A stretch of 57,823 nt of DNA from a virus: the IMG/VR virus record IMGVR_UViG_3300034106_003862, positions 1-57,823 of that record; one strand, given 5' to 3'. The notes beneath the pieces were generated by a model. The model was not told where the DNA came from, did no database searches, and saw only the letters and a list, made by a program, of their open reading frames with translations. The translations under genes and the position numbers were made by a program. Shown piece by piece: positions 9,283-27,660 of the stretch (position 1 is its first letter; every line of letters starts with the position of its first letter).

Positions 9283-10781
9283 TTGTAGGTGGGATTCTTG
9301 ATACGCCAGTCTTCTTCCATGCCGCCGTATTGCTCGATCCACTGCATCATCAGCTTACGGTTGAGCGCGTTGCCCGGCGCGACGGCTCGGTTGAGAATCC
9401 AGTAGCTGTTGTGCCACTCGTGCCAGATCGCGTGTTCTAGCTCGCAGCCCGTGACGTGCGCGTTCCGGCGCATCAGGTTCCTCATCACGTTGTCCCACGA
9501 CTCCCGGCCCATCAGCATGTCGGGGAACATCTCGCGGTTCGCGAGCCACCAACGCTTGCTCACCGCGTAGAGGTCGCAACCGCTGTACCACTTGGCGCGA
9601 CGAATATCGAACTCGTCCTTCGGGAGACGCTTGGTCAGCGGGTGATGATAGTCCCACCGATGCGCGTAGGCCGCGCCGTGACGCTGCACCGTTTCAAGTA
9701 TTAGACCCGTTAATCCTGAGCAGAAGCCAATGTCATCATTGCAGAGAACGAGGATGGAGTCGTCCGAACGCGCTTCCGCTGCCGCCGTGTCGAGCAGGTC
9801 GCGGATGTACGGCACCGGCTTGTCGTTGATGTACGTCCCGTCGCGCTTGGCCTCGAAACGAATCTCCCGCCACAGGCCATTCTTGAACTCCTCCTCGCGG
9901 GTCAGACGTGCCCGACCAATCCGTGCCGCGTTGACGTTGTTGTTCACGGGACCGTAGTTCGTGACAAACAACAGCTCCGGAACGGGTTTGTCGTGCACGA
10001 GCGCACGGATAATCTCGTCCATGCGGCTCAGGGCCTCGTTGTAGAAACAGCGCAGCACTTGGTACGGCTTCCAAGCCGCACGTCCAAAGGGCGAACGGTC
10101 GAATGGTATCAGGGCCACAGTGCGCATCGTCGGCACAGCCTGCGCGAGGTGGAGAGGGAAGGAGTCGTTGGTCACGAGACCCACGGCCTTTTCGTACAGG
10201 GCCAGCAGGTCGTATGCGTGCGTGCTGCGAACGTCGGACACGTTCACCACCTCGTGGCCCGGCAGGCGCTTGGTCAGCTCGGCGAACACCTCGGGGGCGT
10301 CCTTGAACGGTGCGGTCCACCCCGCGCCGGAGAACAGGACGAGCGGCTTCTTGCCCTCGATGCGCTGGAGCAGCATCTCCTCCGCCGCCTTGTCGCGCTT
10401 GTCGAACACCAGCTCCGCACGCTCGAACGGCAGGTCCGTCTTCGACCGCTTCCAGATCTCGCGGTTGAAGGACCGCATGTCGAACGCGTAGTTCACTCCG
10501 CTCCCGTGCACCGAGCAGTCCACGAGCGGGTGGCCCGGGAATTTCTTGTACAGCCACGCCTTCGCCTCGGCCACCGTGTCGAACGTGCCGTGCCAGACGA
10601 TCGGCTCCACGTAGGAGACCCCGTCGAGCAGCGACGCGAAGTCCTTGGAGACGCACAGCCTCGCCGGACGATTGTGGTCGAGCGAGTACTGCTTGAGAAC
10701 CGGGAGGAGATTGGTGATGTCTCCGTTCCGGCCCAGCATCAGGTAAATATCAGTCGAGGTACTGGAAACGATTCGAGACAT
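9279..10781 (-). CDS. Two-domain glycosyltransferase: GT9-like plus GT-A-like
   Basis: About 500 residues. The first half resembles the heptosyltransferase family (GT9): a glycine-rich first loop (IYLMLGRNGDITNLLPVL), LVLFSGAGWTAPFKDAPEVF, and the donor-site motif TNDSFPLHLAQAVP. The second half (LLFVTNYG onward) looks like a separate GT-A enzyme with the acidic motif LCNDDIGF. The product may therefore add two sugars. I chose the ATG at 10781, overlapping terL by 32 bases, because the later ATG at 10739 would cut into the first beta strand. It heads a chain of overlapping genes running to 7147. Confidence 0.7.
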   Translation of the reverse strand: MSRIVSSTSTDIYLMLGRNGDITNLLPVLKQYSLDHNRPARLCVSKDFASLLDGVSYVEPIVWHGTFDTVAEAKAWLYKKFPGHPLVDCSVHGSGVNYAFDMRSFNREIWKRSKTDLPFERAELVFDKRDKAAEEMLLQRIEGKKPLVLFSGAGWTAPFKDAPEVFAELTKRLPGHEVVNVSDVRSTHAYDLLALYEKAVGLVTNDSFPLHLAQAVPTMRTVALIPFDRSPFGRAAWKPYQVLRCFYNEALSRMDEIIRALVHDKPVPELLFVTNYGPVNNNVNAARIGRARLTREEEFKNGLWREIRFEAKRDGTYINDKPVPYIRDLLDTAAAEARSDDSILVLCNDDIGFCSGLTGLILETVQRHGAAYAHRWDYHHPLTKRLPKDEFDIRRAKWYSGCDLYAVSKRWWLANREMFPDMLMGRESWDNVMRNLMRRNAHVTGCELEHAIWHEWHNSYWILNRAVAPGNALNRKLMMQWIEQYGGMEEDWRIKNPTYK

Positions 10782-12621
10782 CGGTTCGAGGGCGAAAGTT
10801 GCTGGCACCGGCGTCAGAACCCGATCCCACTTCCGCAGTGCCCACCGGGCCAGCGACGTTGAGACGAACACCGTGGATGAGAAGAGTCAAGGAGTCAGCG
10901 TAGTCGGGCGACTTATTTCCCCGGGACTTGTATTCGGTTTTCGCCTCCACCTTGATCTTGCCCCGTGCCGACGTATTGAACTGTCGGCTCGTCAGCTCGT
11001 GGAACAGGCGCTCCGTGGGCATCGTGTTGGAAATCTTGACGATGCTGTGCTCGATGAACTTGCGGGCCGCGTACCACAGCTCGGTCACCAGACGCTCGTA
11101 GAGATCGGACGGGGTCTCCGTGTCCTCCGTGAGAATCTTGATCTCGGACGCGGAGAAGCTGGGGTTCACGCCCTTCACTGGGCCCCACGTCGCCTTCAAA
11201 TAATCGTGCACGCCCGCGCCGTTGACGGTGCGGTCCACGCAGACCCACTCCGGCTCCACGCCCGCGTTCTCGCACATCTCGCGAATACTCCGCGCCATTT
11301 GCAGCGTCTCGGCCTTGGGCAGTTTAAACTGCTGGTCGATCTGGATCACGTTCTTGCGGAACGGTCGCCCGTCCTCCCCCACGAACACCCTCGTCTCGCC
11401 GTTAGGATGTTCCTTCGTGGGCCTCGTGCGCCAGCCGGTCGCAAGGCCGTAGCGCCCCACGGTCATCACCGCGTTGTCGTCGCCCTCAAGCGCAATGTCC
11501 ACGCCCGCCACCGGCACCGAGCTGGCGAACGTAAACTCGCCCTTGATCTCGTTGAGGAGCGACTGAGGGATGATGACGATGTCGGAGCCCTCCTTCGGAA
11601 AGGCACCGCGAGCGAACGTGTAGTATCCCCGGGTATTGAACCCGCCAGCGTTCGAGATGATCCGGTCGATACCCGTCTTCGTCTGGAGACCCGGGTAGAT
11701 CATCTTGTTCTGGACGACGTTCTCGGACTTCATGCCGTCGAGCCTCACGACGTTCCAACCTCTCCGGCTCTTCCACGTAATGCTGTGGTCCAGATCGAAG
11801 TGGCCCCAGCCGTCCTCGGGCTCGCAGCGCACACCGCACGCACCGTTCTGGTCCTTGGGGTTGAATGCCGCGAAGATCTTGAACTGCTCTAAACCGTCGG
11901 TGTTCGAGAGAATGTTGGACACGTCCTCCCAGATACCCACCGGAATATCCTCGGCCTCCTCCAGCATGATCCGCAGCCGTGTCATCTTGCCGAGGGTGGG
12001 GTGGGGCCTCGATCGCGGTTTCACCTTGATGCCCTGCAACTTCGCCGGGCTCTTCTTGCCCAGCGGAACAATCACCCCGTAGATGCCCGCGTCGCGCTTG
12101 TGCGGGTCCAGAGTGATGCCCAGACGAATACACTCGCCCGGACTCGGTATCGCCGATGTCTGGTGAAGGGTAACGAGGTGCGAGAACAAGTTCTTCTCAA
12201 GATGGTCCTCGCTGGGTCCCACCACCTTGACGTTCGTGTTCTCCGGGTCCCGAAGCCAATCGAGGTACAGCCACACGCCCAGCGAGAACGATTTGCCCAC
12301 CGACGCCGCGCCCATGATCATCAACTGGCTCGCGTTCTTGATCTCCTCCCACATCAGCTTCACGCTGCTCGGATCGGCGGAAAAGGTTGCCGAGGTCCAG
12401 AGCAGCGCAGCCGTATCGGCGTAGCGTCCTTGGTCCAAGAGCCACTGGCGGAACGCGACGAGGATCTGCGTGGCCTCGGAATCGCTGGTCGTCTGGGCGT
12501 TGGAATTCTTAACCTTCAGGACGATGTCGGCAGCGGCCTTTACGTCCTGACGCTCGTGCAGTTCCTCGGCCACACGGCGGACGAGCTGCGAGACGGCATC
12601 AAGTTTAGAATCGGTAGACAT
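10750..12621 (-). CDS. terL: Terminase large subunit
   Basis: A 623-residue DNA-packaging motor. The ATPase domain shows Walker A (MGAASVGKSFS, residues 103-113) and a Walker B-like strand (RIMLEEAEDI, about 217-226). The nuclease domain shows the first acidic residue in AGVDIALEGDD (Asp375), CVDRT, and SPDYADSL near the end. It would cut concatemers and pump DNA through the portal. About 300 bases of repeat-rich noncoding DNA lie upstream, unusual in this tightly packed cluster. The GT gene overlaps its end. Confidence 0.9.
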   Translation of the reverse strand: MSTDSKLDAVSQLVRRVAEELHERQDVKAAADIVLKVKNSNAQTTSDSEATQILVAFRQWLLDQGRYADTAALLWTSATFSADPSSVKLMWEEIKNASQLMIMGAASVGKSFSLGVWLYLDWLRDPENTNVKVVGPSEDHLEKNLFSHLVTLHQTSAIPSPGECIRLGITLDPHKRDAGIYGVIVPLGKKSPAKLQGIKVKPRSRPHPTLGKMTRLRIMLEEAEDIPVGIWEDVSNILSNTDGLEQFKIFAAFNPKDQNGACGVRCEPEDGWGHFDLDHSITWKSRRGWNVVRLDGMKSENVVQNKMIYPGLQTKTGIDRIISNAGGFNTRGYYTFARGAFPKEGSDIVIIPQSLLNEIKGEFTFASSVPVAGVDIALEGDDNAVMTVGRYGLATGWRTRPTKEHPNGETRVFVGEDGRPFRKNVIQIDQQFKLPKAETLQMARSIREMCENAGVEPEWVCVDRTVNGAGVHDYLKATWGPVKGVNPSFSASEIKILTEDTETPSDLYERLVTELWYAARKFIEHSIVKISNTMPTERLFHELTSRQFNTSARGKIKVEAKTEYKSRGNKSPDYADSLTLLIHGVRLNVAGPVGTAEVGSGSDAGASNFRPRTDVSNRFQYLD

Positions 12622-15073: not shown

Positions 15074-15439
15074 ATGACCGCTAAGAAGAAAACCAACACC
15101 CGCAGCACCAAGACGAAGACCCGCAGCACCAAGTCCCCGCGTGACGAGGCCCGCGAGGCCGCGCAGTGTTTGCTAAACAAGAAGTTCGAGTCGTTCGGCC
15201 TTGAGGACGACCCGAAGGGCGATGAACTCATGGCCATGGCCCTTGAGAACCTGCTGGACGATGCCGCTGAGTGCGCCGCCCACCTCCACGACAAGAACCT
15301 CCCCAAGCTGTTCTCCGCCGCCGTTCGACTCGAAGACAACGCGATCGCGTTCCACTACATCGTGACGAACATCCTCCGCAACACGGACCAGAAGACCCGC
15401 GATCTCGCCATCGCGGAAGCCTTCGGACCCGCCAAGTAA
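15074..15439 (+). CDS. Hypothetical early protein with a Lys/Thr-rich N-terminus
   Basis: A 121-residue protein. Residues 1-25 repeat a K-T-R-S-T pattern (direct DNA repeat ACCCGCAGCACCAAG twice). The rest is an acidic helical domain (KGDELMAMALENLLDDAAECAAHL). It is separated from both neighbours by about 55 bases that each begin with a similar CCCGGCC-type stretch and end in an A-rich leader before ATG. Function unknown. Confidence 0.65.
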   Translation: MTAKKKTNTRSTKTKTRSTKSPRDEAREAAQCLLNKKFESFGLEDDPKGDELMAMALENLLDDAAECAAHLHDKNLPKLFSAAVRLEDNAIAFHYIVTNILRNTDQKTRDLAIAEAFGPAK

Positions 15440-15495
15440 TCTCCCGGCCCTCCCACGGCCACGACAACAACGCCCGTAGTTCAGAACCCAATACA

Positions 15496-16041
15496 ATGAG
15501 AAAGCCACGCATTCACCTGTCCGACGAATGCCTCGCCGAGATGGAACGCCTGTTCCGCTCCGCGAAAATACGCTGGTACACCGACCAGCAGATCGCCGAC
15601 CACCTGTTCGCTCGCGGACTCACGGAGCGCCCTCTGTGCGCAACGACGATTCACCACCGACGAATCGCGATCTGCGGATACCGCCAGCGATGGAGGTCCA
15701 AGGGTCCCCTTGCTCGCAAGGTGGTGAGATCGTATGGGTGGAGGCCCGCCGCAGGCCGCTACGTCGTCGTTTCGCCGTTGGCTGAGGAGGCAGAACGCAA
15801 GCCCGCCCTTGCCTGCGCCCCGGCTCCGACGCCTGCGCCAGCCCCGGCCTCGGCCTCGGCCCCCGCGCCTGCGCCAGCCCCGGCCTCGGCCTCGGCCTCG
15901 GCCCCAGCGCCAGCGCCAGCGCCAGCGCCCGCCGCCGCCGCCTCCGCCGCGCCGACGAACGAGGATCGCCTTGTTCGTCTGGAGCGCGTGCTCGCTCAGT
16001 TGGTGGAACTCCAGCTCCGCGCAATTCAGAAGACCACCTGA
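15496..16041 (+). CDS. Hypothetical HTH-like protein with an Ala/Pro/Ser repeat linker
   Basis: A 181-residue protein in three parts. Residues 1-60 resemble a helix-turn-helix (WYTDQQIADHLFARGLT, then TIHHRRIAICGY). Residues about 107-150 are an almost pure A/P/S linker built from GCCCCGGCCTCGGCCTCG-type DNA repeats. Residues 152-181 (EDRLVRLERVLAQLVELQLRAIQ) form a short coiled coil. It may be a DNA-binding protein tethered to an oligomerising helix. Length variation in the repeat is likely between relatives. Confidence 0.65.
   Translation: MRKPRIHLSDECLAEMERLFRSAKIRWYTDQQIADHLFARGLTERPLCATTIHHRRIAICGYRQRWRSKGPLARKVVRSYGWRPAAGRYVVVSPLAEEAERKPALACAPAPTPAPAPASASAPAPAPAPASASASAPAPAPAPAPAAAASAAPTNEDRLVRLERVLAQLVELQLRAIQKTT
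15816..15950. repeat. GC-rich Ala/Pro/Ser codon repeat
   Basis: A tandem, imperfect repeat of 6-base units (GCGCCA, GCCTCG, GCCCCG) inside the gene at 15496-16041. It includes two near-copies of a stretch of about 30 bases reading CCTGCGCCAGCCCCGGCCTC and on. It leaves several reading frames open on both strands, which creates false genes there. Confidence 0.8.
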
Positions 16042-16045
16042 CACC

Positions 16046-16246
16046 ATGCCTAGGCACACATCACGAGAACAGGACATTCTGATCGATCAGGCCAGCAGCA
16101 CCGTCGAGAACATCGTCACAAACCTGATCGCCGTCGTCGAGCAGCTCGATGACCGGCTCTCCGAGTCGATCAGCGAGAACGACACGCTGCGAGCAACTAT
16201 CGAATCGCTTGAGCGGCGTATCGAAGAACTGGAGGCAAAACAATGA
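16046..16246 (+). CDS. Small coiled-coil protein
   Basis: A 66-residue acidic protein with clear heptads from about residue 18 to the end (VENIVTNLIAVVEQLDDRL and LRATIESLERRIEELEAKQ), so it is probably an alpha-helical dimer or trimer. It starts four bases after the preceding stop and overlaps the next gene by ATGA. Function unknown. Confidence 0.7.
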   Translation: MPRHTSREQDILIDQASSTVENIVTNLIAVVEQLDDRLSESISENDTLRATIESLERRIEELEAKQ

Positions 16247-16482
16247 GCGCGAAGCGCAAAGACGGAGGCCCGGCTTTTCCGATGGGGTATCGCCCCGAGG
16301 GGAATAGTGCAAACCACCCCGGCATGACCTTACGCGATTACTTCGCGGCGGCGGCGTTGCAGGGGCTGATTGGCTGCGACTACGATGACGGGCCCACTTG
16401 GGAAGATTTCGTCGCGCAGTCCTACCAGCTCGCCGACGCGATGATCGCCGAGCGTGCGAAGGCGAAGGGCGGTGCGTCGTGA
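16243..16482 (+). CDS. Small conserved phage-type protein (GMTLRDYFAAAALQG motif)
   Basis: A 79-residue protein with DGGPAFPMGYRPEG, then GMTLRDYFAAAALQGL and YQLADAMIAERAK. I recall this pattern from many small proteins of tailed phages; the function is not known. It overlaps the previous gene by ATGA and the next by GTGA, so it is translated as part of a coupled series. Confidence 0.75.
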   Translation: MSAKRKDGGPAFPMGYRPEGNSANHPGMTLRDYFAAAALQGLIGCDYDDGPTWEDFVAQSYQLADAMIAERAKAKGGAS

Positions 16483-16964
16483 GTAACGCTCCATTTGAAA
16501 TCGCGGGCATGCGAGTCGTCATCGCGTCGCTGGAGGACGCCATCGAGAAGCTGGAGCGCGAGAACGCCGAGATGCGGAAATACAAGGAGCGGCTGAAGTG
16601 GCTTGCGACTCAACGCTGCTCTCCCGGAGACTACCCAAAAGGCGACGTGGGCGTTGTAGTTTCGGAAAACTACGCACAGGTCAGCTTGGAGACGGCCATC
16701 GACGATGCACGTCGAAAAGAATCTGCGCCCGAGCAGGCAAATCCGGCGCAAGGCTCCACGATTGCACGGCCCGCCGACCCGCCCGCTGTTTCGCAGCACC
16801 TGATGCTGAACGGTAAAGCCTATTCGCTCGACGAAATGCAGCGCACGCTGGACGTACAGGCGGATCAGATACGCGAGCTGGCCCGAGTGCTCCACCAGCA
16901 CGACATGATCCGCCAACGCGACCTCGCTCAATTCGAGCCGCGCCGGGAAGGAGGTGCGACGTGA
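16479..16964 (+). CDS. Hypothetical coiled-coil protein
   Basis: 161 residues from a GTG that overlaps the preceding TGA (GTGA). Residues 14-36 (VVIASLEDAIEKLERENAEMR) are a coiled coil, the middle is irregular, and a second helix spans about 115-145. Its start sequence GTGAGTAACGC is repeated exactly at the gene beginning at 17325, so the two N-termini (MSNAP, MSNAR) may derive from one another. Confidence 0.65.
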   Translation: MSNAPFEIAGMRVVIASLEDAIEKLERENAEMRKYKERLKWLATQRCSPGDYPKGDVGVVVSENYAQVSLETAIDDARRKESAPEQANPAQGSTIARPADPPAVSQHLMLNGKAYSLDEMQRTLDVQADQIRELARVLHQHDMIRQRDLAQFEPRREGGAT

Positions 16965-17332
16965 GCGATACACCGATGGAAGACGCGAAAACAAAGTTTT
17001 ACAGGCTCAATCCAGAAAAGAGAGAAGAGTTCCCTGCTGTTGACTTCGCTCGCTCACGGACCTGCCGTTTGATTGAGCGCGAGAACGCCGCGCTGCGGCA
17101 CACCGAGGAGAACTTGGTTGCCACCGTGCGTGGGCTGGAATTTGAGCTAGAGAAAGCGCAGAAGACGGTCGTCGCGCTGCGGGAGGCTGCGCTTGCGCTG
17201 ATAAGCGAGCTTGATGTAGAAGCGTTTGATCGTGTAGGCCGACCGAAGGGAGAGATGCTCTACGAGCACGTCGGTCCACTTCGCGCCGCTGTCAACGCCG
17301 CACGCGCAGGGGAGGAGGTTCGACGTGAGTAA
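16961..17332 (+). CDS. Hypothetical coiled-coil protein
   Basis: A 123-residue protein with a long helical segment (RLIERENAALRHTEENLVATVRG, LEFELEKAQKTVVALREAA; shown in parts) covering about residues 36-85. The GTG start is overlapped by the previous stop and preceded by a good Shine-Dalgarno sequence (GGAGGTGCGAC-GTG). It shares the general plan of its neighbours: one helix-rich domain and no catalytic motif. Confidence 0.65.
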   Translation: MSDTPMEDAKTKFYRLNPEKREEFPAVDFARSRTCRLIERENAALRHTEENLVATVRGLEFELEKAQKTVVALREAALALISELDVEAFDRVGRPKGEMLYEHVGPLRAAVNAARAGEEVRRE

Positions 17333-17711
17333 CGCAAGAAAGCTCTCCCTTTTTCTCGCCGAGTACAACCTCTGGCGACGCGGAGGGCTCGACGAGATGC
17401 CGTCGTCCCACACTCCCGCGGAAATCGGGGTTGCACTCGACGAGGCCGTGTATCTGCTCAAAAAATACGACGAGCTAGAGCGCGATGAACTGCGCAAGCT
17501 GCGTGCAGAACTCGACTGCTCGTGCAACGCCGAGGAGCTGACCAAAGCGTTCGATTGGCTCCAGAGAAACGCGCCTGTATCCATTCGTTACATGACAGGC
17601 AACGATCAGTGGAGCCTGCCCCCAGCCTACTGCGTGCTCGTCAAAGACCGTCTGTTCTACGGCACGACGGTGTTCCACGCGGTTCGAGAAGCGATGCTAA
17701 GTAAGCCATGA
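17325..17711 (+). CDS. Hypothetical early protein
   Basis: A 128-residue protein. Residues 1-75 are helical (IGVALDEAVYLLKKYDELERDELRKLRAEL) and the rest looks like a small beta domain (YMTGNDQWSLPPAYCVLVKDRLFYG). The GTG start follows GGAGGTTCGAC, nearly the same junction as the previous gene. It overlaps the next gene by ATGA. Function unknown. Confidence 0.65.
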   Translation: MSNARKLSLFLAEYNLWRRGGLDEMPSSHTPAEIGVALDEAVYLLKKYDELERDELRKLRAELDCSCNAEELTKAFDWLQRNAPVSIRYMTGNDQWSLPPAYCVLVKDRLFYGTTVFHAVREAMLSKP

Positions 17712-18355
17712 TCGATCTACCTGTTCACCAGTACGTCACCGTATCGCCCGGCCTCATACACGACGAGGTCCAGCGCGGCGCGTGGTTCGCCGTGCAGCCC
17801 AACATGGGCGGCGTGTGGGGCGGGCATGTTCTTCTGGAAAGTGGCGCACTTTACAGAAACATCCCGCTCCACGCGCTAGTCATCGGGCCCGACGACTCGC
17901 CGACCCAACGTCCCGAGGACCTGCAGCTCTGGGACTGTTACTCCGAGGAGGCCACGGCGATCGAGTACCGATACCTCCGCACGCAGGTCACGTTGAGCCG
18001 GTCGGCAAACTGCGGGGCGGCCCCGATCGTGGGGACGTATCTCTTCACGCTGATCCCGAGGAACGACGCATTCTCCCGGCACCCGGAGCAGGCGAAGGAG
18101 TTCGTCGTATCCGTGCGAGACGATACAAGCCGACTGGTTATTCGGGCCACGAACGAGCTGCTGTTCGCCGACAAGAGCCTCGCCGACCAGCCGACGGCAT
18201 GGCCCTACGGGCTCAAGCGCCTCGTCGAGGTGCCGAGCGTGGAGGGGTGGGATTATCGCAAACCGTTCGGGACATGGGGCGCAAAAACAGCCCCTAAAAC
18301 GGGCGATCCCGAAAACCCGGCACAAGCACCCGCCCAGAGCCCGAAAACCCCGTAA
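17708..18355 (+). CDS. Hypothetical protein, last gene of the first rightward block
   Basis: A 215-residue, mostly beta-predicted protein (YVTVSPGLIHDEVQRGAWFAV, GVWGGHVLLESGALYRNIPLHAL; shown in parts) with a low-complexity Lys/Pro-rich tail (KTGDPENPAQAPAQSPKTP). Its end faces the leftward island; the shared hairpin at 18412-18431 lies 57 bases beyond its stop but has a U-tract only in the leftward sense. No family recognised. Confidence 0.65.
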   Translation: MIDLPVHQYVTVSPGLIHDEVQRGAWFAVQPNMGGVWGGHVLLESGALYRNIPLHALVIGPDDSPTQRPEDLQLWDCYSEEATAIEYRYLRTQVTLSRSANCGAAPIVGTYLFTLIPRNDAFSRHPEQAKEFVVSVRDDTSRLVIRATNELLFADKSLADQPTAWPYGLKRLVEVPSVEGWDYRKPFGTWGAKTAPKTGDPENPAQAPAQSPKTP

Positions 18356-18406: not shown

Positions 18407-18431
18407 AAAAAGCCCCGGATTTCTCCGGGGC
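18407..18431 (-). terminator. Rho-independent terminator of the leftward island
   Basis: Stem GCCCCGG/CCGGGGC (18412-18418 with 18425-18431), 6-base loop, followed leftward by five U residues (18407-18411). It sits between the convergent genes at 17708-18355 and 18442-18730. Its sequence, including the flank CCTGAGGG, is nearly repeated by the terminator at 19608-19631. Confidence 0.8.
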
Positions 18432-18441
18432 CTGAGGGTGG

Positions 18442-18730
18442 TCACTGGCCGATCCGGTGCGCCGCCGCTCGTTCGGCAGCGGCCCGGGCGATGGTCGCGT
18501 AGGACTCCGCCCTCGCCACCTGCTTCGATTCGCTCACCACCCGTGTGGCGGCGAGGGCGCTGCGGGCGGCACGTTCTGCGTGGGTGGCCGCACGCTCGGC
18601 GGAGTGGACCCACGCCGCGAGGTCGTGGGGGTCGGTAGGCGTCCAGCTCGGCCCGGCAGGCGTCGAGGGCCAGCTCGGCGGCGGCGCGTGCGTATTCGGC
18701 GGCGGTGGTGGGGAAGATTGAGGAGGTCAT
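18442..18730 (-). pseudogene. Small Ala/Arg-rich gene with an apparent +1 frameshift in a C5 run
   Basis: The first frame, from the ATG at 18730, gives a normal-looking start (MTSSIFPTTAAEYARAAAE, then LALDACRAELDAY) and then turns into Pro/Arg-rich nonsense. The +1 frame picks up at the run of five C's (18627-18631 on the plus strand as G's) and gives a clean helical tail (DLAAWVHSAERAATHAERA, SYATIARAAAERAAAHRIGQ) to a TGA at 18442-18444. The joined product would be about 95 residues, ending just before the terminator. It may be a decayed gene, a sequencing indel in the homopolymer, or programmed +1 slippage on CCC-C. Confidence 0.55.
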
Positions 18731-18735
18731 GGGAA

Positions 18736-19062
18736 TTAGCGTCCGAAGACGGCTTCGAGGTCGGCGTCGATCTGGGCCTCAGCCGCGACCTCGGCGTCGT
18801 GGTCGGCCTGCCGCGTGTAAGTCTCCTCGACGCGCCGATAGTCGCCTCGGCCCTCGGCGATGCGGAAGCGGTACCCGCCGCCGGGGAACCGGTCAACGGA
18901 CAAGAAGGTGCTGGCGTCGAGGCGCTTTACCCAGATGCGGGTGCACCGCGCCAGAGGGACGGCGACCTTGTGGTCGGGGACTTCGCGGAGCAGGCGCTTG
19001 ATTTCCGTGACGAGCGTCGCATCGACGGCGCGGGTGATGTTTTCGGTGGTGGGGGTGCTCAT
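18736..19062 (-). CDS. Hypothetical island protein
   Basis: A 108-residue protein: an N-terminal helix (TEIKRLLREVPDHKVAV), a beta-rich middle (RIWVKRLDASTFLSVDRFPGG) and an acidic C-terminal helix. It starts after CTACTCCC-ATG, the pyrimidine-rich context typical of this island. The next gene starts five bases after its stop. Function unknown. Confidence 0.65.
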   Translation of the reverse strand: MSTPTTENITRAVDATLVTEIKRLLREVPDHKVAVPLARCTRIWVKRLDASTFLSVDRFPGGGYRFRIAEGRGDYRRVEETYTRQADHDAEVAAEAQIDADLEAVFGR

Positions 19063-19088
19063 GGGAGTAGGGATTTTTCAGCCGGAAA

Positions 19089-19115
19089 CCCCGCCCCGGC
19101 GAACCGGAGGCGGGG
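19089..19115 (-). terminator. Strong GC hairpin between island genes
   Basis: Stem CCCCGCCCCGG/CCGGAGGCGGGG with one mismatch and a 4-base loop, 23 bases after the stop of the gene at 19139-19513. Only three U residues follow leftward, so it may attenuate rather than end transcription toward the gene at 18736-19062. Confidence 0.5.
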
Positions 19116-19138
19116 CGAGGGGCCGGAGGGCGGGCCGA

Positions 19139-19513
19139 TCAGAGCACCGCGACTGTGAGCTTCAGGTCCATGATCGTTTCGCGGGCATTGCGGCTGATGA
19201 AGGGTCGGCTGATCGCGATCTCATCGTCTCCGAAGACTACCACCGAAAACCGCGTGTCGCTCAGGCTCGAATGGAACGGGCTGTACTTGTTGAGGAGCAG
19301 TATGTCGTAGGTCCGATAGTGGAACCAGACCTCGGTCTCGCCATTGGTCTCGTTGCGGACGACGAACACTTGGGTGATCTGGGTGTCGCGGTCGTCGCGA
19401 GCGAGGTCGGCCCGGGCGAGGGGCTCGTTGTAGCTCAGGTCGATGCCCGCGGCGGCGACGGCATCGGACAGCTTCGAGTGGCGGGAGACGATCTTCAGGG
19501 TGGTGGTGTTCAT
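19139..19513 (-). CDS. Hypothetical island protein
   Basis: A 124-residue, mostly beta-predicted protein (QITQVFVVRNETNG, EVWFHYRTYDILLLNKYS, RFSVVVFGDDEIAIS). It follows the promoter at 19550-19578 and the leader CTCCTCCCTCCC-ATG. Its 34-base start region is identical to that of the gene at 20085-20408, though the proteins differ after the start codon. Function unknown. Confidence 0.65.
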   Translation of the reverse strand: MNTTTLKIVSRHSKLSDAVAAAGIDLSYNEPLARADLARDDRDTQITQVFVVRNETNGETEVWFHYRTYDILLLNKYSPFHSSLSDTRFSVVVFGDDEIAISRPFISRNARETIMDLKLTVAVL

Positions 19514-19549
19514 GGGAGGGAGGAGTTAAGGATTTCGATTACGAGACAG

Positions 19550-19578
19550 AGCGTGGACCCCCTTCGGAATATTGGCAA
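19550..19578 (-). promoter_or_regulatory. Island promoter, copy A
   Basis: The -35 TTGCCA (19573-19578) and the -10-like CACGCT (19550-19555) are spaced by exactly 17 bases and share the flank GCTTGCCA and a G-run in the spacer with copies at 20445-20473 and 22588-22616. It drives 19513-18442. Confidence 0.7.
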
Positions 19579-19607
19579 GCACATATTTTCAGATATTTTT
19601 TGGGCCC

Positions 19608-19631
19608 AAAAAAGCCCCGGTTTCCCGGGGC
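19608..19631 (-). terminator. Rho-independent terminator inside the island
   Basis: Stem GCCCCGG/CCGGGGC (19614-19620 with 19625-19631), a 4-base loop and six U residues leftward. It ends the unit 20408-19640 and is followed about 30 bases later by promoter copy A. It is nearly identical to the terminator at 18407-18431. Confidence 0.85.
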
Positions 19632-19639
19632 CTGAGGGC

Positions 19640-19831
19640 TCACCACGTCGTGACCCGCTCGATCGCCCGGAGCCGCTTGTCGTGCAGCTCAGCGATCCGG
19701 GCCACGATGGCCGTCCGCTGCTCGCGGCCCGGCCCCGTGTGACGTAGCCGCTCTTCCAATACGGCAATCTCTCGGGCGTAGTACACCACCATCGCCCGAT
19801 CGCTCGGGCCCACCTGTGATTCGGTTCTCAT
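19640..19831 (-). CDS. Small helical island protein
   Basis: A 63-residue, Arg-rich helical protein (MVVYYAREIAVLEERLRHTGP, with IVARIAELHDKRLRAIERV). Its ATG overlaps the upstream TGA, so it is coupled to the 86-residue gene before it. It ends nine bases before the terminator hairpin. Function unknown. Confidence 0.6.
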   Translation of the reverse strand: MRTESQVGPSDRAMVVYYAREIAVLEERLRHTGPGREQRTAIVARIAELHDKRLRAIERVTTW

Positions 19832-20088
19832 AGGTGGTCGGCGATGTGCTGCTCGATCTCAGCGAGTTCGCGGTTGATTTGTTCGAGAGCGGCGAATCGG
19901 GCGGCGTGCTGTTCGCGTGCGGCCTTCCACGCCTCGTCCCCCTGCGGGTAGTAGTCGCGGGCGTTGAACTCGACCTGCTCCAGAGTGAGGATCGCGTCGC
20001 GGAGCATCCGCCGGGCCAGCCCGTACTGACGGGCCAGCCCAGCGGCGTTGCTGCCATTAGTGTGGATGGTTGGGAGGATGAGTTTCAT
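19828..20088 (-). CDS. Small helical island protein
   Basis: An 86-residue, mostly alpha-helical protein (AGLARQYGLARRMLRDAILT, FAALEQINRELAEIEQHIADHL). It overlaps the genes on both sides by ATGA, which makes the three genes 20408-19640 one coupled unit. Function unknown. Confidence 0.6.
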   Translation of the reverse strand: MKLILPTIHTNGSNAAGLARQYGLARRMLRDAILTLEQVEFNARDYYPQGDEAWKAAREQHAARFAALEQINRELAEIEQHIADHL

Positions 20089-20408
20089 CGGAGTGAGTTG
20101 ATCGAGGCTTCGAGCGCGATGCGGGCACCGGCCATGATGCTCTCGCGCTTCTTGTGAGCGGCCAGCACGATCCGCTCGGCCTCGCGGTTGGCGGACTCAC
20201 GAGCGTCGCGTGCGTGGTCCTCGGCACGCTCCATCACGTCGGCAGCGGCGGCGCGTGCGACGGACAGGGGCAGGGGCGGGGTCATGTCGGCGCGAATCTC
20301 GCGGATGATCGCGTCGAGCTGGTCGATGAGCACCGGACCGAAATAGGAGTCGGTCCCGAGCTTGTCGGCGAATTCGCGGAGGATGTTGATCTCTTGGTCT
20401 TTTGTCAT
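20085..20408 (-). CDS. Helical island protein
   Basis: A 107-residue protein, first gene of the unit under promoter copy B. A helical N-terminus (EINILREFADKLG) is followed by a long A/E/R-rich helix (ADVMERAEDHARDARESANR onward). Start context CTCCTCCCTCCC-ATG with no Shine-Dalgarno sequence. Function unknown. Confidence 0.65.
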   Translation of the reverse strand: MTKDQEINILREFADKLGTDSYFGPVLIDQLDAIIREIRADMTPPLPLSVARAAAADVMERAEDHARDARESANREAERIVLAAHKKRESIMAGARIALEASINSLR

Positions 20409-20444
20409 GGGAGGGAGGAGTTAAGGATTTCGATTACGACTCAG

Positions 20445-20473
20445 AGCATGGTGCCCCGGTTTGATATTGGCAA
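20445..20473 (-). promoter_or_regulatory. Island promoter, copy B
   Basis: The -35 TTGCCA (20468-20473) and the -10-like CATGCT (20445-20450) are spaced by 17 bases, with CCGGGG in the spacer. The 34 bases ending at the next gene's ATG are identical to those after copy A. Confidence 0.7.
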
Positions 20474-20482
20474 GCACAAATC

Positions 20483-20524
20483 GAAGAAAAAGAACGCCCC
20501 CAGACCCATAGGCCCGGAGGCGTT
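20483..20524 (-). terminator. Terminator after the pentapeptide gene
   Basis: A GC-rich hairpin whose outer stem AACGCC/GGCGTT (20493-20498 with 20519-20524) is clear and whose inner pairs are imperfect. It is followed leftward by CTTTTTCTT. It would end the unit 21471-20547 just before promoter copy B. Confidence 0.65.
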
Positions 20525-20546
20525 GAGGCCCAACGACTTACGACGA

Positions 20547-20960
20547 TTAAACTTTGTCGAAGACGGTGCCCTTGGTCTCGCACTTGACGAACGAAACGCC
20601 GCGCAACTGGGCCCCGCTGAACTCGGCGTCCGTGAGGTCGGCTCCGTCCGTCCGACACCCGGTCAGGTTGGCGGATACGAACGTAGTGCCCACGGCGGAT
20701 ACGCCGGTCATGTCGGAGAAGACGAACATCGCGTTGTCTGCCCGAGCGTGGCTCAGGTCAGCGAACGAGAGATCGGCCCCGCTCAAATCAGCGTCGCGTA
20801 GGTCGGTGTCCCGGAGGTCGGCGTCGGCGAACAGGGCTCTCCTCAGCAGGAGCCCGCGCAGGTTGACTCCGCGCAGGTTCTGGCCGAAGAAGTTGGCCCG
20901 CTGTCCGCCTCTGCCCATTAACCAGAGGCCGTGGGCCTCGACGATTTCGTGGAGGTTCAT
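20547..20960 (-). CDS. Pentapeptide-repeat protein
   Basis: A 137-residue protein. Residues about 25-130 are consecutive A(D/N)LXX-type pentapeptides (ADADLRDTDLRDADLSGADL onward), the signature of a right-handed quadrilateral beta helix. Known members bind and inhibit or protect DNA gyrase, and many have no known role. It overlaps the upstream DnaA-domain gene by ATGA. A link to DNA topology during replication is an inference from that neighbour. Confidence 0.85.
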   Translation of the reverse strand: MNLHEIVEAHGLWLMGRGGQRANFFGQNLRGVNLRGLLLRRALFADADLRDTDLRDADLSGADLSFADLSHARADNAMFVFSDMTGVSAVGTTFVSANLTGCRTDGADLTDAEFSGAQLRGVSFVKCETKGTVFDKV

Positions 20961-21244
20961 TTTATGGGTAAGTTCATTCCCAAGGCCATCGACTCGATCC
21001 GTGCGCGGAACTTTTTCTCTGTATTCATCCGAGCGGATACAGACTTCACGGCGTGCCGGATGGTGTTGTGATTGCGCTGGAATGCGGCGGCAATCTCGGA
21101 CCAGTCCGGACGCGAACGGAACGCGAGGAACATCGCGACGTGACGCGCCTCGACTCGTGGAGCGGATCGGTCCGGGTCGATGATGTCCTCGGGCCGGAGC
21201 TGGTAGAGAGCCGCGACCCGGGCGAGGATGGTTAGGTAGCTCAC
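20957..21244 (-). CDS. Stand-alone DnaA domain IV-like protein
   Basis: A 95-residue protein. Residues about 30-85 match the DNA-binding domain of DnaA: EARHVAMFLAFRSRP, WSEIAAAFQRNHNTIRHAVKSV (in place of the usual HTTVLHA). There is no AAA+ domain. The N-terminal 28 residues also resemble the linker to domain IV (LYQLRPEDIIDP). It could compete for host DnaA boxes, mark the phage origin or act as a repressor. GTG start overlapping the previous TGA. Confidence 0.8.
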   Translation of the reverse strand: MSYLTILARVAALYQLRPEDIIDPDRSAPRVEARHVAMFLAFRSRPDWSEIAAAFQRNHNTIRHAVKSVSARMNTEKKFRARIESMALGMNLPIK

Positions 21245-21471
21245 TTCGTGTCCTTTTTTCCGCGACGACGCGAGTACTCGGCGACGATTGACTCGTCGAG
21301 CAGTTCATTGAGGAGGTCGCCCGCAGAGATGCCGAGAGCGAAGCTGTAGAATTCGAGCCGGGTCTTCGCGACGAACGGCACGCGCCACGGGAGATTGCAT
21401 CGTCGTGCGTTTGGAATTTTCGGGCGACCGGGGGACCGGGGCGTGGGGCTGGTGGTGGGGGTGGTGTTCAT
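21241..21471 (-). CDS. Small hypothetical protein, possible ribbon-helix-helix type
   Basis: A 76-residue protein with a Pro/Thr-rich N-terminus and then a strand-helix-helix pattern (WRVPFVAKTRLEFYSFALG, ISAGDLLNELLDESIVAEY) resembling small DNA-binding proteins. Its ATG lies directly after a terminator U-tract (T9 then CTCCC-ATG), an odd position. It heads the 21471-20547 unit. Confidence 0.6.
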   Translation of the reverse strand: MNTTPTTSPTPRSPGRPKIPNARRCNLPWRVPFVAKTRLEFYSFALGISAGDLLNELLDESIVAEYSRRRGKKDTK

Positions 21472-21476
21472 GGGAG

Positions 21477-21515
21477 AAAAAAAAAGAGGGCGAGCAACCC
21501 GTGTCACTCGCCCTC
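21477..21515 (-). terminator. Perfect terminator abutting a start codon
   Basis: A perfect 9-base stem GAGGGCGAG/CTCGCCCTC (21486-21494 with 21507-21515), a 12-base loop and nine U residues leftward. It begins 12 bases after the DUF932-like stop, and the U-tract ends five bases before the next ATG. No separate promoter is visible between them, so downstream genes need read-through. Confidence 0.85.
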
Positions 21516-21527
21516 ATTGGTGTCGAG

Positions 21528-22352
21528 TTAGATCGTCACAGCGTGGCCGTTGGCGATCGACTCAGCGGCCTGCCAGAGCTGGGTGTTGATCCGCTCCGAG
21601 GCCGTCAGGCTCGTGACCTGTTTGACCCGGCGGTACGAGAGGGTCGGCAGCTCGGTGCCGTCGTCATTGTATTGGCGGAATCCAGCCATCCATCTGCCGC
21701 GCATGAGCGATTCCTGAGTGCGGTTGAACGAGCGCCAGAGGTCGTTGCCGTTGTCGCCGTACCGGCGGGCCATGCTGTACTGGATGCTCACGCGAGCCGG
21801 GGCGCTCTTTTCGTTCGGCCAGCGGAATCCGAGAGCCTGCCGGGCGAACGCCATCTGCTGTTCCGGCGACAGCTCGATGGACCGCCAGAGGTCAACGGCG
21901 CTGATCACGCGGTCGAAATTCTTCCGAGCCTCGCGGGCTCCGGCGACGATGCGGTTTTCGAGGTTGTCACCACGGTGGTGATACACGCCGCCCACGGCCT
22001 TGATTCCGGTGTAGAGCTGGTTGGTGCAGGCGGACCGGAGGAAGCCGCCGATCAGACGGAACGCGCAACCACCGTCCGACGAGTTGGCCAGCCGCATGAG
22101 CGGCGAGCCCTCGGCGTGCGTGGGCAGGTCCGGGTGGGTCAAAGAAATCTCGTGCTTCCGATGTTCGAGCTTGGCGAGCGACCGGGACCGCACTTGCCGG
22201 GCGTCGGTGACGACCCAGCCGTCCTGCTGGAGCGCGTCGATGACGTTAGCGGTCGTGACGTGCGAGTAGGAGTCGGTCAGGTGGGCATCCGGGCTGATGG
22301 AAAAAGCAGCCGGAGCGAGGCTGCGAATCTGGGTCATGTTCATTGCGTTCAT
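21528..22352 (-). CDS. DUF932-like phage/plasmid protein
   Basis: A 274-residue protein that fits the DUF932 family of phage and plasmid proteins: an N-terminal HVTTANVIDALQQDGWVVTDARQ module, HEISLTHPD, a central LRSACTNQLYTG-like segment, then a helical C-terminus with YSMARRYGDNGNDLWRSFNRTQE. The family has no settled function. The ATG at 22352 or the nearby MNMTQ could be the start. No strong promoter lies between it and the 55-residue gene before it, so promoter copy C probably drives both. Confidence 0.7.
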   Translation of the reverse strand: MNAMNMTQIRSLAPAAFSISPDAHLTDSYSHVTTANVIDALQQDGWVVTDARQVRSRSLAKLEHRKHEISLTHPDLPTHAEGSPLMRLANSSDGGCAFRLIGGFLRSACTNQLYTGIKAVGGVYHHRGDNLENRIVAGAREARKNFDRVISAVDLWRSIELSPEQQMAFARQALGFRWPNEKSAPARVSIQYSMARRYGDNGNDLWRSFNRTQESLMRGRWMAGFRQYNDDGTELPTLSYRRVKQVTSLTASERINTQLWQAAESIANGHAVTI

Positions 22353-22393
22353 TGTGGATACGTTTTTGGGTTTTTGGTTCTGACAGGAAAGGG

Positions 22394-22561
22394 TTAAGCG
22401 GTGATCAGACCGGCATCGATGAGCTGGCGAGCTGTGCGATGGTAGTAGCCCTGCAACGAATAGAGCAGGCCGGTGTCGAGCAGGTTCTGGAAGAAGGCGA
22501 TGATCTCGTCGTCGGTCATCTCGCCGTTCTCGAATCGGATAATGTTGTCTACGTTATTCAT
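22394..22561 (-). CDS. Small DUF7417-like phage protein
   Basis: A 55-residue protein (MNNVDNIIRFENGEMTDDEI, FFQNLLDTGLLYSLQGYYHR, LIDAGLITA). The pattern, helix plus LQGxYxRTAxxLIxAG, is one I know from very common small phage proteins (DUF7417). It is the first gene of the leftward island, after promoter copy C, with start context CACTCCC-ATG. Function unknown. Confidence 0.75.
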   Translation of the reverse strand: MNNVDNIIRFENGEMTDDEIIAFFQNLLDTGLLYSLQGYYHRTARQLIDAGLITA

Positions 22562-22587
22562 GGGAGTGAGGAGTTGTTACGCCCATC

Positions 22588-22616
22588 ACCATGAGACCCC
22601 GCAGGCATTCTGGCAA
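22588..22616 (-). promoter_or_regulatory. Island promoter, copy C
   Basis: The -35 TTGCCA (22611-22616) and the -10-like CATGGT (22588-22593) are spaced by 17 bases, with a GCGGGG spacer block as in copies A and B. It drives the 55-residue gene and probably the DUF932-like gene. Confidence 0.7.
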
Positions 22617-22634
22617 GCCTTAATCTTAAAATTC

Positions 22635-22651
22635 TTCAGAAATTTTCTGAA
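22635..22651. promoter_or_regulatory. Perfect 17-bp palindrome in the divergent region
   Basis: TTCAGAAATTTTCTGAA is an 8-1-8 inverted repeat, 19 bases upstream of the -35 of island promoter C and about 25 bases before the rightward promoter. It is a good operator candidate for a dimeric regulator such as the RHH or HTH protein encoded just to the right. Confidence 0.5.
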
Positions 22652-22759: not shown

Positions 22760-22912
22760 GTGAAAACGAAACTGTCATTCCAACTGAGCGAGGAGCAGCT
22801 CGAAAAGGTGCGCTCAATCGCCGAAGCACGGGGCATCTCGATGAGTGATGTCCTCCGCGAAATCCTCCGCGCCGAAGTGGAGAGGAAGCCGAAGACCCGC
22901 CGCAAGCGATGA
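22760..22912 (+). CDS. Ribbon-helix-helix DNA-binding protein
   Basis: 50 residues from the GTG at 22760 (a GTG at 22724 would add 12). The strand KTKLSFQLSEEQ is followed by two helices (LEKVRSIAEARGI, MSDVLREILRAEVE) and a Lys/Arg tail: the Arc/CopG fold, which binds DNA as a dimer through the beta strand. As the first rightward gene next to two inverted repeats it probably regulates the divergent promoters. Confidence 0.75.
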   Translation: MKTKLSFQLSEEQLEKVRSIAEARGISMSDVLREILRAEVERKPKTRRKR

Positions 22913-23313
22913 GCCGCTCGTACGAGCTTAACCACTACACGGGCGCTGGTAACCAGAGCCGCGAGGCATCCTGCGTCGCTTATTTCGCGAGGTTCTGCGA
23001 ACGCGCCAAGGCCGAGATGGTGAGTGCCGAGGGCGTGCGCCAGTCGATATTTGCCGAGGGCCATCCGCAGCGCCCACCGAAGAAGTCGCTGACTCGCGGT
23101 CTCCATGGATCAGGTATCGATCTCAGGGCCACCGTTGTCGATGGCATGCGTGTCACCGAGAAGGTGGTCGAGGTTGCCCGCCGCTGGGTCGAGACGGATA
23201 CCCCGGGCCGAAAGCGCCCCCAAGGACTCCTCGCTCAGATGGCCGAAGAGGCCGGAGTGTCGATCAGCACAATCAAAAAACTCGGTCGAAGAATCCGTGA
23301 TGGAAAGGTGTAA
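22909..23313 (+). CDS. Hypothetical protein with a C-terminal HTH
   Basis: A 134-residue protein. Residues about 105-130 (LLAQMAEEAGVSISTIKKLGRRI) form a helix-turn-helix. The N-terminal half (YFARFCERAKAEMVSAEGVRQSIF) is helical and may oligomerise. It overlaps the RHH gene by ATGA; the two could act as a regulatory pair. Confidence 0.65.
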   Translation: MSRSYELNHYTGAGNQSREASCVAYFARFCERAKAEMVSAEGVRQSIFAEGHPQRPPKKSLTRGLHGSGIDLRATVVDGMRVTEKVVEVARRWVETDTPGRKRPQGLLAQMAEEAGVSISTIKKLGRRIRDGKV

Positions 23314-23315
23314 TC

Positions 23316-23510
23316 ATGCAACCAATACTCACTCTCGCTCTGTCCGTCGCGGCGTCTTGCGGGGCGCTGTACCTCATCGATGATGCCTACCAAGCCTACC
23401 TCGAAAGAGCACCGCTGCGTGACTTTATTTTCAAAGCCGTGCTTGCCGCCTGTTCATTCGTGCTCGCTGTCGCCCTCTGGCTACTCGTCTACCTCGCTCC
23501 CCATGCCTGA
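23316..23510 (+). CDS. Small two-helix membrane protein
   Basis: 64 residues with hydrophobic segments at about 5-23 and 40-60 and a charged loop between (DDAYQAYLERAPLRDF). Size and plan match small holins, but it lies among early genes, far from the lysozyme, so another membrane role is just as likely. It overlaps the next gene by eight bases. Confidence 0.6.
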   Translation: MQPILTLALSVAASCGALYLIDDAYQAYLERAPLRDFIFKAVLAACSFVLAVALWLLVYLAPHA

Positions 23511-24048
23511 CAAGAATTACCATTCGTACGAAATGCTCAACGGTGCACTCATCGCCAACGGCGTCCTCGTGCCTGATCTGGATACGTACTCGGACACGAT
23601 GAAAATCTGGAAGTGCACCGGGTGCGTCTTCAAGGACTTCTTCGTCGTGGGCTCGAAGGAGGACTGCCTCGACGTGGGCCAGCAGACGATCGCCACGCTC
23701 TTCGACCGTTTCCGCGTCTCGTCCCGAGGACGTTACGTCGTGACGCTGAAGGGCGGTAGCCACTACAACACGTTCAGCGATTGGGTCGTGGAGCGGCACG
23801 GGTCAGCCGTCGATTTCGAGATCGGCAACTGGCACTCGCTGAATTTCTCTACGTCTGTTGGCACGTCCCTCGTCAACCTGCGTGCCGAGGACGGCAAGCC
23901 GGTCACCTACTGCTACCGTTGGGGCTGCAAGCCCAACATCATCGGAGGCCACACGAAGCACCTCTGGTGGCGGTCGATCGGTCTCACCGTGTACTGGTGG
24001 GCGAAATACGTTTGGCACCGCGTCCTCAACCGCCCCGACAAATTCTGA
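23503..24048 (+). CDS. Hypothetical protein, mainly beta
   Basis: A 181-residue protein (MPDKNYHSYEMLNGALIANG, IWKCTGCVFKDFFVVGSKED, GRYVVTLKGGSHYNTFSDW) whose repeated short strands suggest a small beta structure, perhaps a beta helix or roll. Its C-terminal 25 residues are Trp-rich (WWRSIGLTVYWWAKYVWHR) and could touch a membrane. The ATG at 23503 lies inside the end of the membrane-protein gene. I recognise no function. Confidence 0.6.
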   Translation: MPDKNYHSYEMLNGALIANGVLVPDLDTYSDTMKIWKCTGCVFKDFFVVGSKEDCLDVGQQTIATLFDRFRVSSRGRYVVTLKGGSHYNTFSDWVVERHGSAVDFEIGNWHSLNFSTSVGTSLVNLRAEDGKPVTYCYRWGCKPNIIGGHTKHLWWRSIGLTVYWWAKYVWHRVLNRPDKF

Positions 24049-26483: not shown

Positions 26484-27660
26484 ACGCGGACACCACCCGG
26501 ACAGCCCTAGCTCGCTACAGGCTTCCGCGCAGTGCCCTCATTTTACGAATCACCAGCGTGAATCCGCCGCGTCTGCGGCGGGCACGTTGCAGCACAAGGC
26601 CGCAGAGACCCGCGATCTTTCCATCCTAGAGGACGAAGATCAGGTGGAAGCGGTGAAGCGTGCCCTCGCGGTGGAAGACGCCGCTATCGACACGCTGCAG
26701 AACCTCGGGTTCGACGTGGAGATTATTCGCGAGCAGTACCTCGCGGTCGCTGGCGACGAAAAGAACGGCGACTGGGCCGGGATCACCGGCGGATACCCGG
26801 ACACTCTCCTCATCGGTCGCGAGAAGGAGGGAGGCGCTCTGGCCATAATTCTCGACTGGAAGTTCGGCAAGCAGCTCGTCACCTCCACCGCCGAGAACAT
26901 GCAGGGCATCGCCTACGCTCTCGCGGTGATGCAGCGGTGGCCCGAGATCGCCGAGGTGAAGGTGGTGTTCTATCACCCGCACATCGAGAAAAAGGACATG
27001 GACCCCGAGTACAGCCACGTATTCACTCGCGACAACATGGAGCAGATGGAGCTGATCGTCCGGCTCATCATCGCCCGCAAGCACAAGGCGAAGTCCGAGG
27101 GCTGGGAGAGCAGCATCACGCCGCTCCCATCGAGCAACCTCTGCATCTGGTGCGCCAACCTCGCCACGTGCCCGGCGGTGCTCAAGCTCGCCAGCGTCGC
27201 GTCCTCGAAGTACGAGGCCCTCACGGTGCCGCAGGAGGTGCGCCCGGCGTTCCTCTCGGACCCGGAGGACATGCGCCGCGTGCACCAGCTCGCCGGTGTC
27301 CTTGAGAAATTTGCGAAAACCGTGAAGACCCGTATTCGCGATGCCGCTCTAACCGAAGGCGTCGAGATTCCGGGGATGAAGCTCGTGACGAAGTCGGACC
27401 GCGAGATCGTGTCCCTGAGCGCCGTCCGCGACGCTGCTCTGGAGCACGGGGTGACGATCGAGCAGTTCGAGGAGTGCCTGTCGTTGCCGATCACCAAGCT
27501 CGAAGACGTGGTGAAGAGGCTTGCGCCGAAGGGCAAGGGCGCTGGCAAGGTTCGCGAGTTTCAGGCCGCTCTGGAAGACGTGGGTGCCGTGAAGAAGGGC
27601 AACCCGTATACCTACCTCGTCGAGTCCAAGTCGTCCGACGGCGACGCGATCGACGTTTAA
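26461..27660 (+). CDS. RecB/Cas4-type nuclease with a probable Fe-S cluster (DUF2800)
   Basis: A 399-residue protein. It carries the nuclease core D-x(n)-DWK (IILDWKFGK near 130-137) and four cysteines in the Cas4/AddB arrangement: one early (SAQCPHF, C25) and three late (CIWC-x5-C, about 228-237), predicting a 4Fe-4S cluster that staples the fold. The C-terminus has a helical region and a small basic domain. DUF2800 proteins lie in phage replication clusters beside an ssDNA-binding-like gene and DNA polymerase A, as here. It probably processes DNA ends. Confidence 0.8.
   Translation: MTTTTPSERGHHPDSPSSLQASAQCPHFTNHQRESAASAAGTLQHKAAETRDLSILEDEDQVEAVKRALAVEDAAIDTLQNLGFDVEIIREQYLAVAGDEKNGDWAGITGGYPDTLLIGREKEGGALAIILDWKFGKQLVTSTAENMQGIAYALAVMQRWPEIAEVKVVFYHPHIEKKDMDPEYSHVFTRDNMEQMELIVRLIIARKHKAKSEGWESSITPLPSSNLCIWCANLATCPAVLKLASVASSKYEALTVPQEVRPAFLSDPEDMRRVHQLAGVLEKFAKTVKTRIRDAALTEGVEIPGMKLVTKSDREIVSLSAVRDAALEHGVTIEQFEECLSLPITKLEDVVKRLAPKGKGAGKVREFQAALEDVGAVKKGNPYTYLVESKSSDGDAIDV

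Follow-up and report, generated by a model that had tools for sequence, protein, structure and literature searches.

Repeated blocks of terminator, putative promoter and start leader punctuate a probable accessory gene island in an IMG/VR virus and its relatives

We analysed the viral contig IMGVR_UViG_3300034106_003862 from IMG/VR (57.8 kb, 61.8% G+C; its full 57,823 nucleotides are called the window below) and found that an island of small minus-strand genes at 18410-22620 carries a repeated composite block, which would comprise, in this order, a terminator, a clade-specific promoter and a pyrimidine-rich start leader. The block is restricted to this island and its counterparts in two relatives, and it precedes unrelated genes in different phages. 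Between conserved flanks, whole units and single genes have been gained or lost while a small core was kept (a DUF932 protein, a small, possibly ribbon-helix-helix (RHH) protein and a stand-alone DnaA domain IV protein). Judging from the sequences, we consider it likely that this is an accessory region in which repeated terminator-promoter-leader punctuation allows recombination to exchange genes. As the original prediction had it, the island runs leftward within a rightward region. Its eleven small open reading frames (ORFs; 22561 to 18442) lie between rightward genes (Table 1).

Relatives and coordinates

Relatives were retrieved through searches with the major capsid protein and the primase, yielding 3300044591_002226 (39 kb; G001), 3300013126_000034 (60 kb; G002), the more distant clade member 3300027976_000078 (G006) and the fragments G003-G005, most records representing one assembly each. 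Coordinates in G001 and G002 refer to the oriented pieces L039 (reverse-complemented) and L040. A further contig, 3300042298_003223, is nearly identical to the window (11 single-nucleotide polymorphisms (SNPs) and one 8-bp indel over the 20.8 kb compared).

A promoter-like element confined to the islands

The repeated element reads TGCTTGC[AC]A-21 nt-CTCTGTCTCGT and is followed by a leader ending in CTCCCATG. A sigma-70 consensus scan of the window recovered no minus-strand promoter in the island, and the motif was therefore found by comparison instead. Nine elements are present in the window, G001 and G002, all nine with TTGC[AC]A and eight with a recognisable CTCTGTCTCG box exactly 21 nt further on; this constant spacing in eight copies argues for a two-box recognition site. 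The nine sites score 40-68 bits on a matrix of the element, six simulated windows peak at 3.3, and outside the islands neither the window nor any of six clade records has a position that reaches 12 bits; as the matrix was built from these same nine sites, the informative part is the gap to all other positions. An exact-pattern scan of 2.9 million viral contigs in IMG/VR matched only G001, G002 and the near-identical contig, with TGAAAATAGTGCTTGCAA-N21-CTCTGTCTCGTAA in four copies in the G001 island and two in that of G002. All three copies in the window have TTGCCA as their -35 sequence and all six in the relatives have TTGCAA, a uniformity within lineages that is consistent with homogenisation or with co-evolution with one factor. 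An A/T-rich CTGAAAAT, like half of the palindrome at 22635-22651, adjoins the -35 of several island promoters.

A candidate reader of these promoters is the sigma factor encoded by the phage, which is conserved in the clade (31-45%). G006 has a relative of it (31%) yet lacks the promoter motif, which weighs on this candidacy.

Strong terminators, start leaders and composite blocks

All four hairpin terminators of the original prediction exist. They are the most stable structures of hairpin plus T-run on either strand of the window (minimum free energy, MFE, -17.5 to -24.8), the other matches being weaker (MFE -7 to -16); simulated sequence gave 2-6 such matches per 57.8-kb strand. A generic consensus terminator scan of the window showed no excess (10 found, 9.9 expected), which is a chance-level count, so that the argument relies on how strong and how clustered the terminators are rather than on their number. 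The predicted likeness of the terminators at 18411 and 19613 was borne out by a common stem and flank (CCGGGGCCTGAGGG, 14/14), and their family, GGCCCCGG...CCGGGGCTTTTTyGTGCCC, supplies strong terminators in all three islands. Visual inspection also showed a weaker GC hairpin (about 19089-19115) that failed the terminator scan.

The predicted identity of the start regions at 19513 and 20408 extends to 35 nt, with 84% identity over 77 nt including TTGCCA. Island leaders finish with CTCCCATG or CTCACATG. The window contains TCCCATG six times, each time at the start of an island gene (6 of the 11 island genes, 0 of the 53 other called genes). A stem-loop terminator followed by a promoter within one intergenic block is found at W_P2, W_P3, G1_P3 and G1_P4. 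Because two terminators in G001 lie a few tens of nt before promoters, what is repeated is a composite block; the G001 terminator-promoter blocks at 8858-8741 and 8295-8193 are 85% alike over the terminator and are each followed by unrelated genes.

Gain and loss of units between conserved flanks

The islands of G001 and G002 also run leftward and occupy the position of the window island, between conserved flanks (58-59% for 17708-18355, 43-69% for 22760-24048). In an all-against-all comparison of the islands the core consists of the DUF932 protein (64-86%), the small possible RHH protein (37-72%) and the DnaA domain IV protein (25-37%). G001 and G002 have three further genes in common, and eight island genes of the window, seven of G001 and two of G002 are without relatives in the other islands. 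Only 3 of the 11 island genes of the window have relatives in the G001 and G002 islands; outside 15.0-22.6 kb nearly all genes of the window have relatives in G002. Each of the three phages has a different first island gene; the DUF7417 protein, first in the window, has no relative in the G001 or G002 island.

The exchange can be followed most closely between G001 and G002. The G002 gene at 6387 is directly followed by the terminal terminator; between the orthologous gene (71% protein identity) and the orthologous terminator (89%) G001 holds 1.4 kb comprising one gene and two promoter-gene-terminator units. A 30-nt remnant (93%) of the G001 CxxCxxCC gene, from its end, survives in G002 just upstream of the orthologous P2. 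The P2 orthologues of the two phages are 91% alike and the first genes behind them differ, the extra G002 gene after P2 sitting between duplicated leaders CAACTCCTCACTC[AC]CATG. The stacking of self-contained units proposed at the outset agrees with these comparisons: the flanks and DUF932 are conserved and most island genes are not, two whole units are present in G001 and missing from G002, and the same full gene order, which would have spoken against stacking, was looked for in the relatives and not found. G006 has neither the island nor the motif. More distant DUF932 relatives also lack the motif; in L176-L178 the gene adjoins those for DNA polymerase and primase, and in L179 its context is unrelated.

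How the blocks could work, and what weighs against it

Each block would end the upstream transcript, start a new one and supply a translation start, so that a gene dropped between two blocks could be expressed at once with its neighbours undisturbed. The repeated blocks may also offer homology for recombination, helped by the exonuclease of the phage, which would explain the shuffling. More tentatively, and with rather less confidence than in the exchange itself, we can imagine that a non-T4 lineage independently evolved a mobile cassette of terminator, promoter and start leader, through which captured genes join one private regulon read by a phage factor (e.g. the sigma factor), the repeats doubling as recombination sites.

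Several observations weigh against exchange guided by such punctuation. The comparison comprises three independent islands (the window, G001 and G002). Near-identity of the three predicted window promoters holds for P2 and P3 and fails for P1 (22618), a weak match that has the -35 block GCTTGCCA and the leader ACTCCTCACTCCCATG without the CTCTGTCTCG box, although its -35 block and upstream sequence align with the relatives. TTGCMA fits a -35; the -10 position, read by eye, is poor, and the hexamers at 17-nt spacing (CATGCT, CACGCT, CATGGT, TCCACT, TTTGCT, TTTACT) fit sigma-70 poorly, so that we infer promoter function from how the elements are spaced, placed and conserved. Some units have several genes, and since T1 lies directly before the start codon of a gene without its own promoter, not all units stand alone. 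This arrangement is conserved in all three phages, where after DUF932 a hairpin and T-run end directly at the leader of the next gene. T1 may be a leaky terminator lowering expression of the genes for the small possible RHH protein and the DnaA domain IV protein, and together with its equivalents in G001 and G002 it is possibly a conserved attenuator. Finally, the rightward block at 15.1-17.7 kb (15074-17711) is almost entirely unshared among the three phages and has no punctuation of the island type; it is a second hypervariable block, and the repeated blocks are therefore not needed for gene turnover.

Alternative explanations

The turnover of that unpunctuated neighbouring block would be expected if the island were an ordinary multi-promoter early region, in which the repeats let one regulator or sigma factor switch all units and gene turnover is general phage background. 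The phage does encode a sigma factor, and a -35 that is uniform per lineage is what one cognate factor would produce, but gain of units coincides exactly with block boundaries and the leaders and terminators are duplicated as well as the promoters, which leaves this explanation rather unlikely. We find it quite improbable that the repeats are protein- or ribosome-binding sites of the stoperator or start-associated kind instead of promoters. In reaching up to the start codon the leader does resemble a start-associated sequence, the -10 match is poor and the half-site beside the -35 resembles half of the 22635-22651 palindrome; every copy, however, directly precedes a gene, all share one orientation and a -35-like TTGCMA, and several follow closely on a terminator.

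The units of the island recall morons, with which the original prediction had compared them and which are known from lambdoid prophages, in having their own promoter and terminator (at the sequence level, in the P2 and P3 units) and in being present or absent between conserved genes, as with the two G001 units inserted between genes adjacent in G002. In the strict sense of recently acquired genes that are expressed from a prophage and benefit the lysogen, this is very improbable: the island units have common punctuation and stand beside a conserved core of DUF932, small gene and DnaA domain IV, the island does not have a distinct base composition (63.6% G+C, against 61.8% for the genome), and no integrase, repressor or other sign of lysogeny was recognised among the scanned proteins, a scan that was not exhaustive. 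Chance repeats or an assembly artefact, for which only the chance-level count of generic terminators speaks, are refuted by the same island in a separate near-identical contig, by the pattern scan, which found the motif in the relatives, and by the matrix simulation.

Products of the island

Four island products were recognised (DUF7417, DUF932, DnaA domain IV and pentapeptide repeat), the remaining ones being without a known family. The DUF932 protein passes the gathering score of PF06067 (72.2 against 23 bits); a Foldseek search of its model (predicted local distance difference test, pLDDT, 67.5) against the PDB gave no significant match. Rad52 ring proteins recur among the non-significant matches (E 0.5-1.8), a lead only. 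The 76-aa protein likewise has a low-confidence model (pLDDT 64) with non-significant matches only, several of them RHH proteins. The DnaA domain IV protein is conserved in position and fast-evolving in sequence, and its profile matches the DnaA structures 2hcb and 1j1v over the domain. Such proteins in the islands (95-133 aa) consist of domain IV only, the combination of AAA+ domain III with domain IV seen in DnaA not being found in them. All retain the arginine of the 'ARx/PRQ' stretch; their DHTT-type recognition segment is altered, so that binding to DnaA boxes should not be assumed, a caution that we take from general knowledge of DnaA. We guess that the protein is a DNA-binding or replication-interfering factor.

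An IMG/VR search with the 107-aa protein returned only the near-identical contig. The last island gene, frameshifted in the window, is intact there as a 98-aa ORF, and the 8-bp difference may be either natural variation or an assembly difference. Island products would probably be synthesised ahead of those of the late genes and would adjust the host, although this too is a guess, as is the suggested role in host takeover or anti-defence. The anti-defence content found no support from PADLOC (one negligible hit for ten island proteins), and no product had a known counter-defence relative. Host-takeover or early modules of lytic phages such as T4 and SPO1-like phages are dense in small uncharacterised genes and have several promoters, and the island resembles them in this.

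The contig and its surroundings

Structural genes of the window run leftward and the replication block runs rightward. A megablast search of 9 kb of the window against 50,697 annotated phage records matched nothing. T4-type relatives were not found: the DNA polymerase is of family A, and the terminase matches only a few distant non-T4 records. When the helicase was used to look for relatives, the matches listed included one helicase (47%) from a phage that differs otherwise (L059); the same protein searched against genome contigs gave, among the matches listed, only distant helicases (22-35%) and no host. All 11 SNPs relative to 3300042298_003223 fall within about 400 bp of the terminase (11626-12031), beside the end of that contig, which may reflect either local recombination or an assembly-end effect. 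The palindrome between the CopG-type regulator and P1 is largely kept in the relatives. A low-complexity stretch at about 15800-16010 codes in one frame for Ala-Pro/Ala-Ser repeats.

Table 1. Features of the window, with coordinates, strand and supporting evidence.
Feature	Position	Strand	Evidence or remark
P1, promoter-like, TTGCCA + weak second box	22580-22627	-	40.4 bits
DUF7417 protein, 55 aa, first island gene	22394-22561	-	PF24192 2.6e-13; phrog_3908
DUF932 protein, 274 aa, conserved core	21528-22352	-	PF06067 7.2e-20; 64-66% to G001/G002
T1, terminator-like hairpin + T-run	21483-21518	-	directly before start codon of gene at 21471
Small protein, 76 aa, possibly RHH, conserved core	21241-21471	-	37-40% to G001/G002
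Stand-alone DnaA domain IV (helix-turn-helix), 95 aa	20957-21244	-	PF08299 4.5e-12; 26-32% to G001/G002
Pentapeptide-repeat protein, 137 aa	20547-20960	-	PF00805 7.4e-21; absent in relatives
T2, terminator hairpin	20493-20524	-	hairpin scans
P2, promoter-like, TTGCCA-N21-CTCTGAGTCG	20437-20484	-	46.8 bits; pattern match
107-aa protein, first of P2 unit	20085-20408	-	no family above cutoff
86-aa protein, P2 unit	19828-20088	-	ORF; no relative in clade
63-aa protein, P2 unit	19640-19831	-	ORF; no relative in clade
T3, terminator, shared family GGCCCCGG...CCGGGGCTTTTTT	19613-19632	-	hairpin scan, family alignment
P3, promoter-like, TTGCCA-N21-CTCTGTCTCG	19542-19589	-	52.7 bits; pattern match
124-aa protein, P3 unit	19139-19513	-	no match in 50,697 phage records or in clade
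108-aa protein	18736-19062	-	no match in phage records or in clade
Last island gene, frameshifted	18442-18730	-	8-bp deletion at 18632
T5, terminal terminator, family of T3	18411-18432	-	hairpin scan, family alignment
Convergent flank gene, conserved	17708-18355	+	58-59% to G001/G002
17-bp perfect palindrome TTCAGAAATTTTCTGAA, possible operator	22635-22651		divergent region, CopG-type regulator to P1
Divergent CopG-type RHH regulator, conserved flank	22760-22912	+	PF01402 1e-07; 45-50% to relatives
Terminase	10750-12621		within leftward structural genes
Exonuclease (phrog_69), candidate part of phage recombination system	26644-27660	+	replication block
Family A DNA polymerase	28527-30533		rightward replication block
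DUF5906 primase/helicase-like protein	30574-32763		rightward replication block
Sigma-70-family factor, candidate reader of island promoters	32760-33467	+	

Comparison with known systems and implications

Promoter-early stem-loops (PeSLs) of T4-type phages are composite promoter-terminator motifs proposed to mediate gene shuffling between relatives (as cited in PMC4503421), and start-associated sequences (SAS/ESAS) of cluster K mycobacteriophages are 13-bp clade-specific repeats whose function is unproven, about half with an inverted repeat upstream, located mostly in one orientation just upstream of start codons, at non-structural genes belonging to different families (PMC3203893). In the island, as with PeSLs, a terminator stem-loop and a promoter separate small accessory genes and recur across a high-turnover region, with copies concentrated where gene content varies and genes gained or lost at the blocks (G001 against G002). 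Unlike PeSLs, the island belongs to an unrelated lineage of about 60 kb that is not a T4-like myovirus, its promoter does not clearly fit a sigma-70 early consensus and is confined to one island in 2-4 copies per genome, and its repeat includes the translation leader. The likeness to SAS lies in short, clade-specific repeats at start codons of genes of different families. No terminator component is described for SAS in the available parts of the source, whereas the island repeat runs from the terminator up to the start codon and includes boxes like those of promoters; the 13-bp GGGATAGGAGCCC did not occur before the start codons, where the leaders read CTCCTC[AC]CTCCCATG. By analogy, the island appears to work like PeSLs while also repeating a translation leader as SAS do, in a lineage related to neither.

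These bacterial viruses make up a small clade that is otherwise undescribed. Its islands suggest that punctuation-guided gene shuffling, known from T4-type phages, had a separate origin elsewhere and can extend to the translation start, and that the genes behind TGCTTGCMA-N21-CTCTGTCTCGT may constitute a defined set of accessory genes open to exchange, most of them without known relatives.

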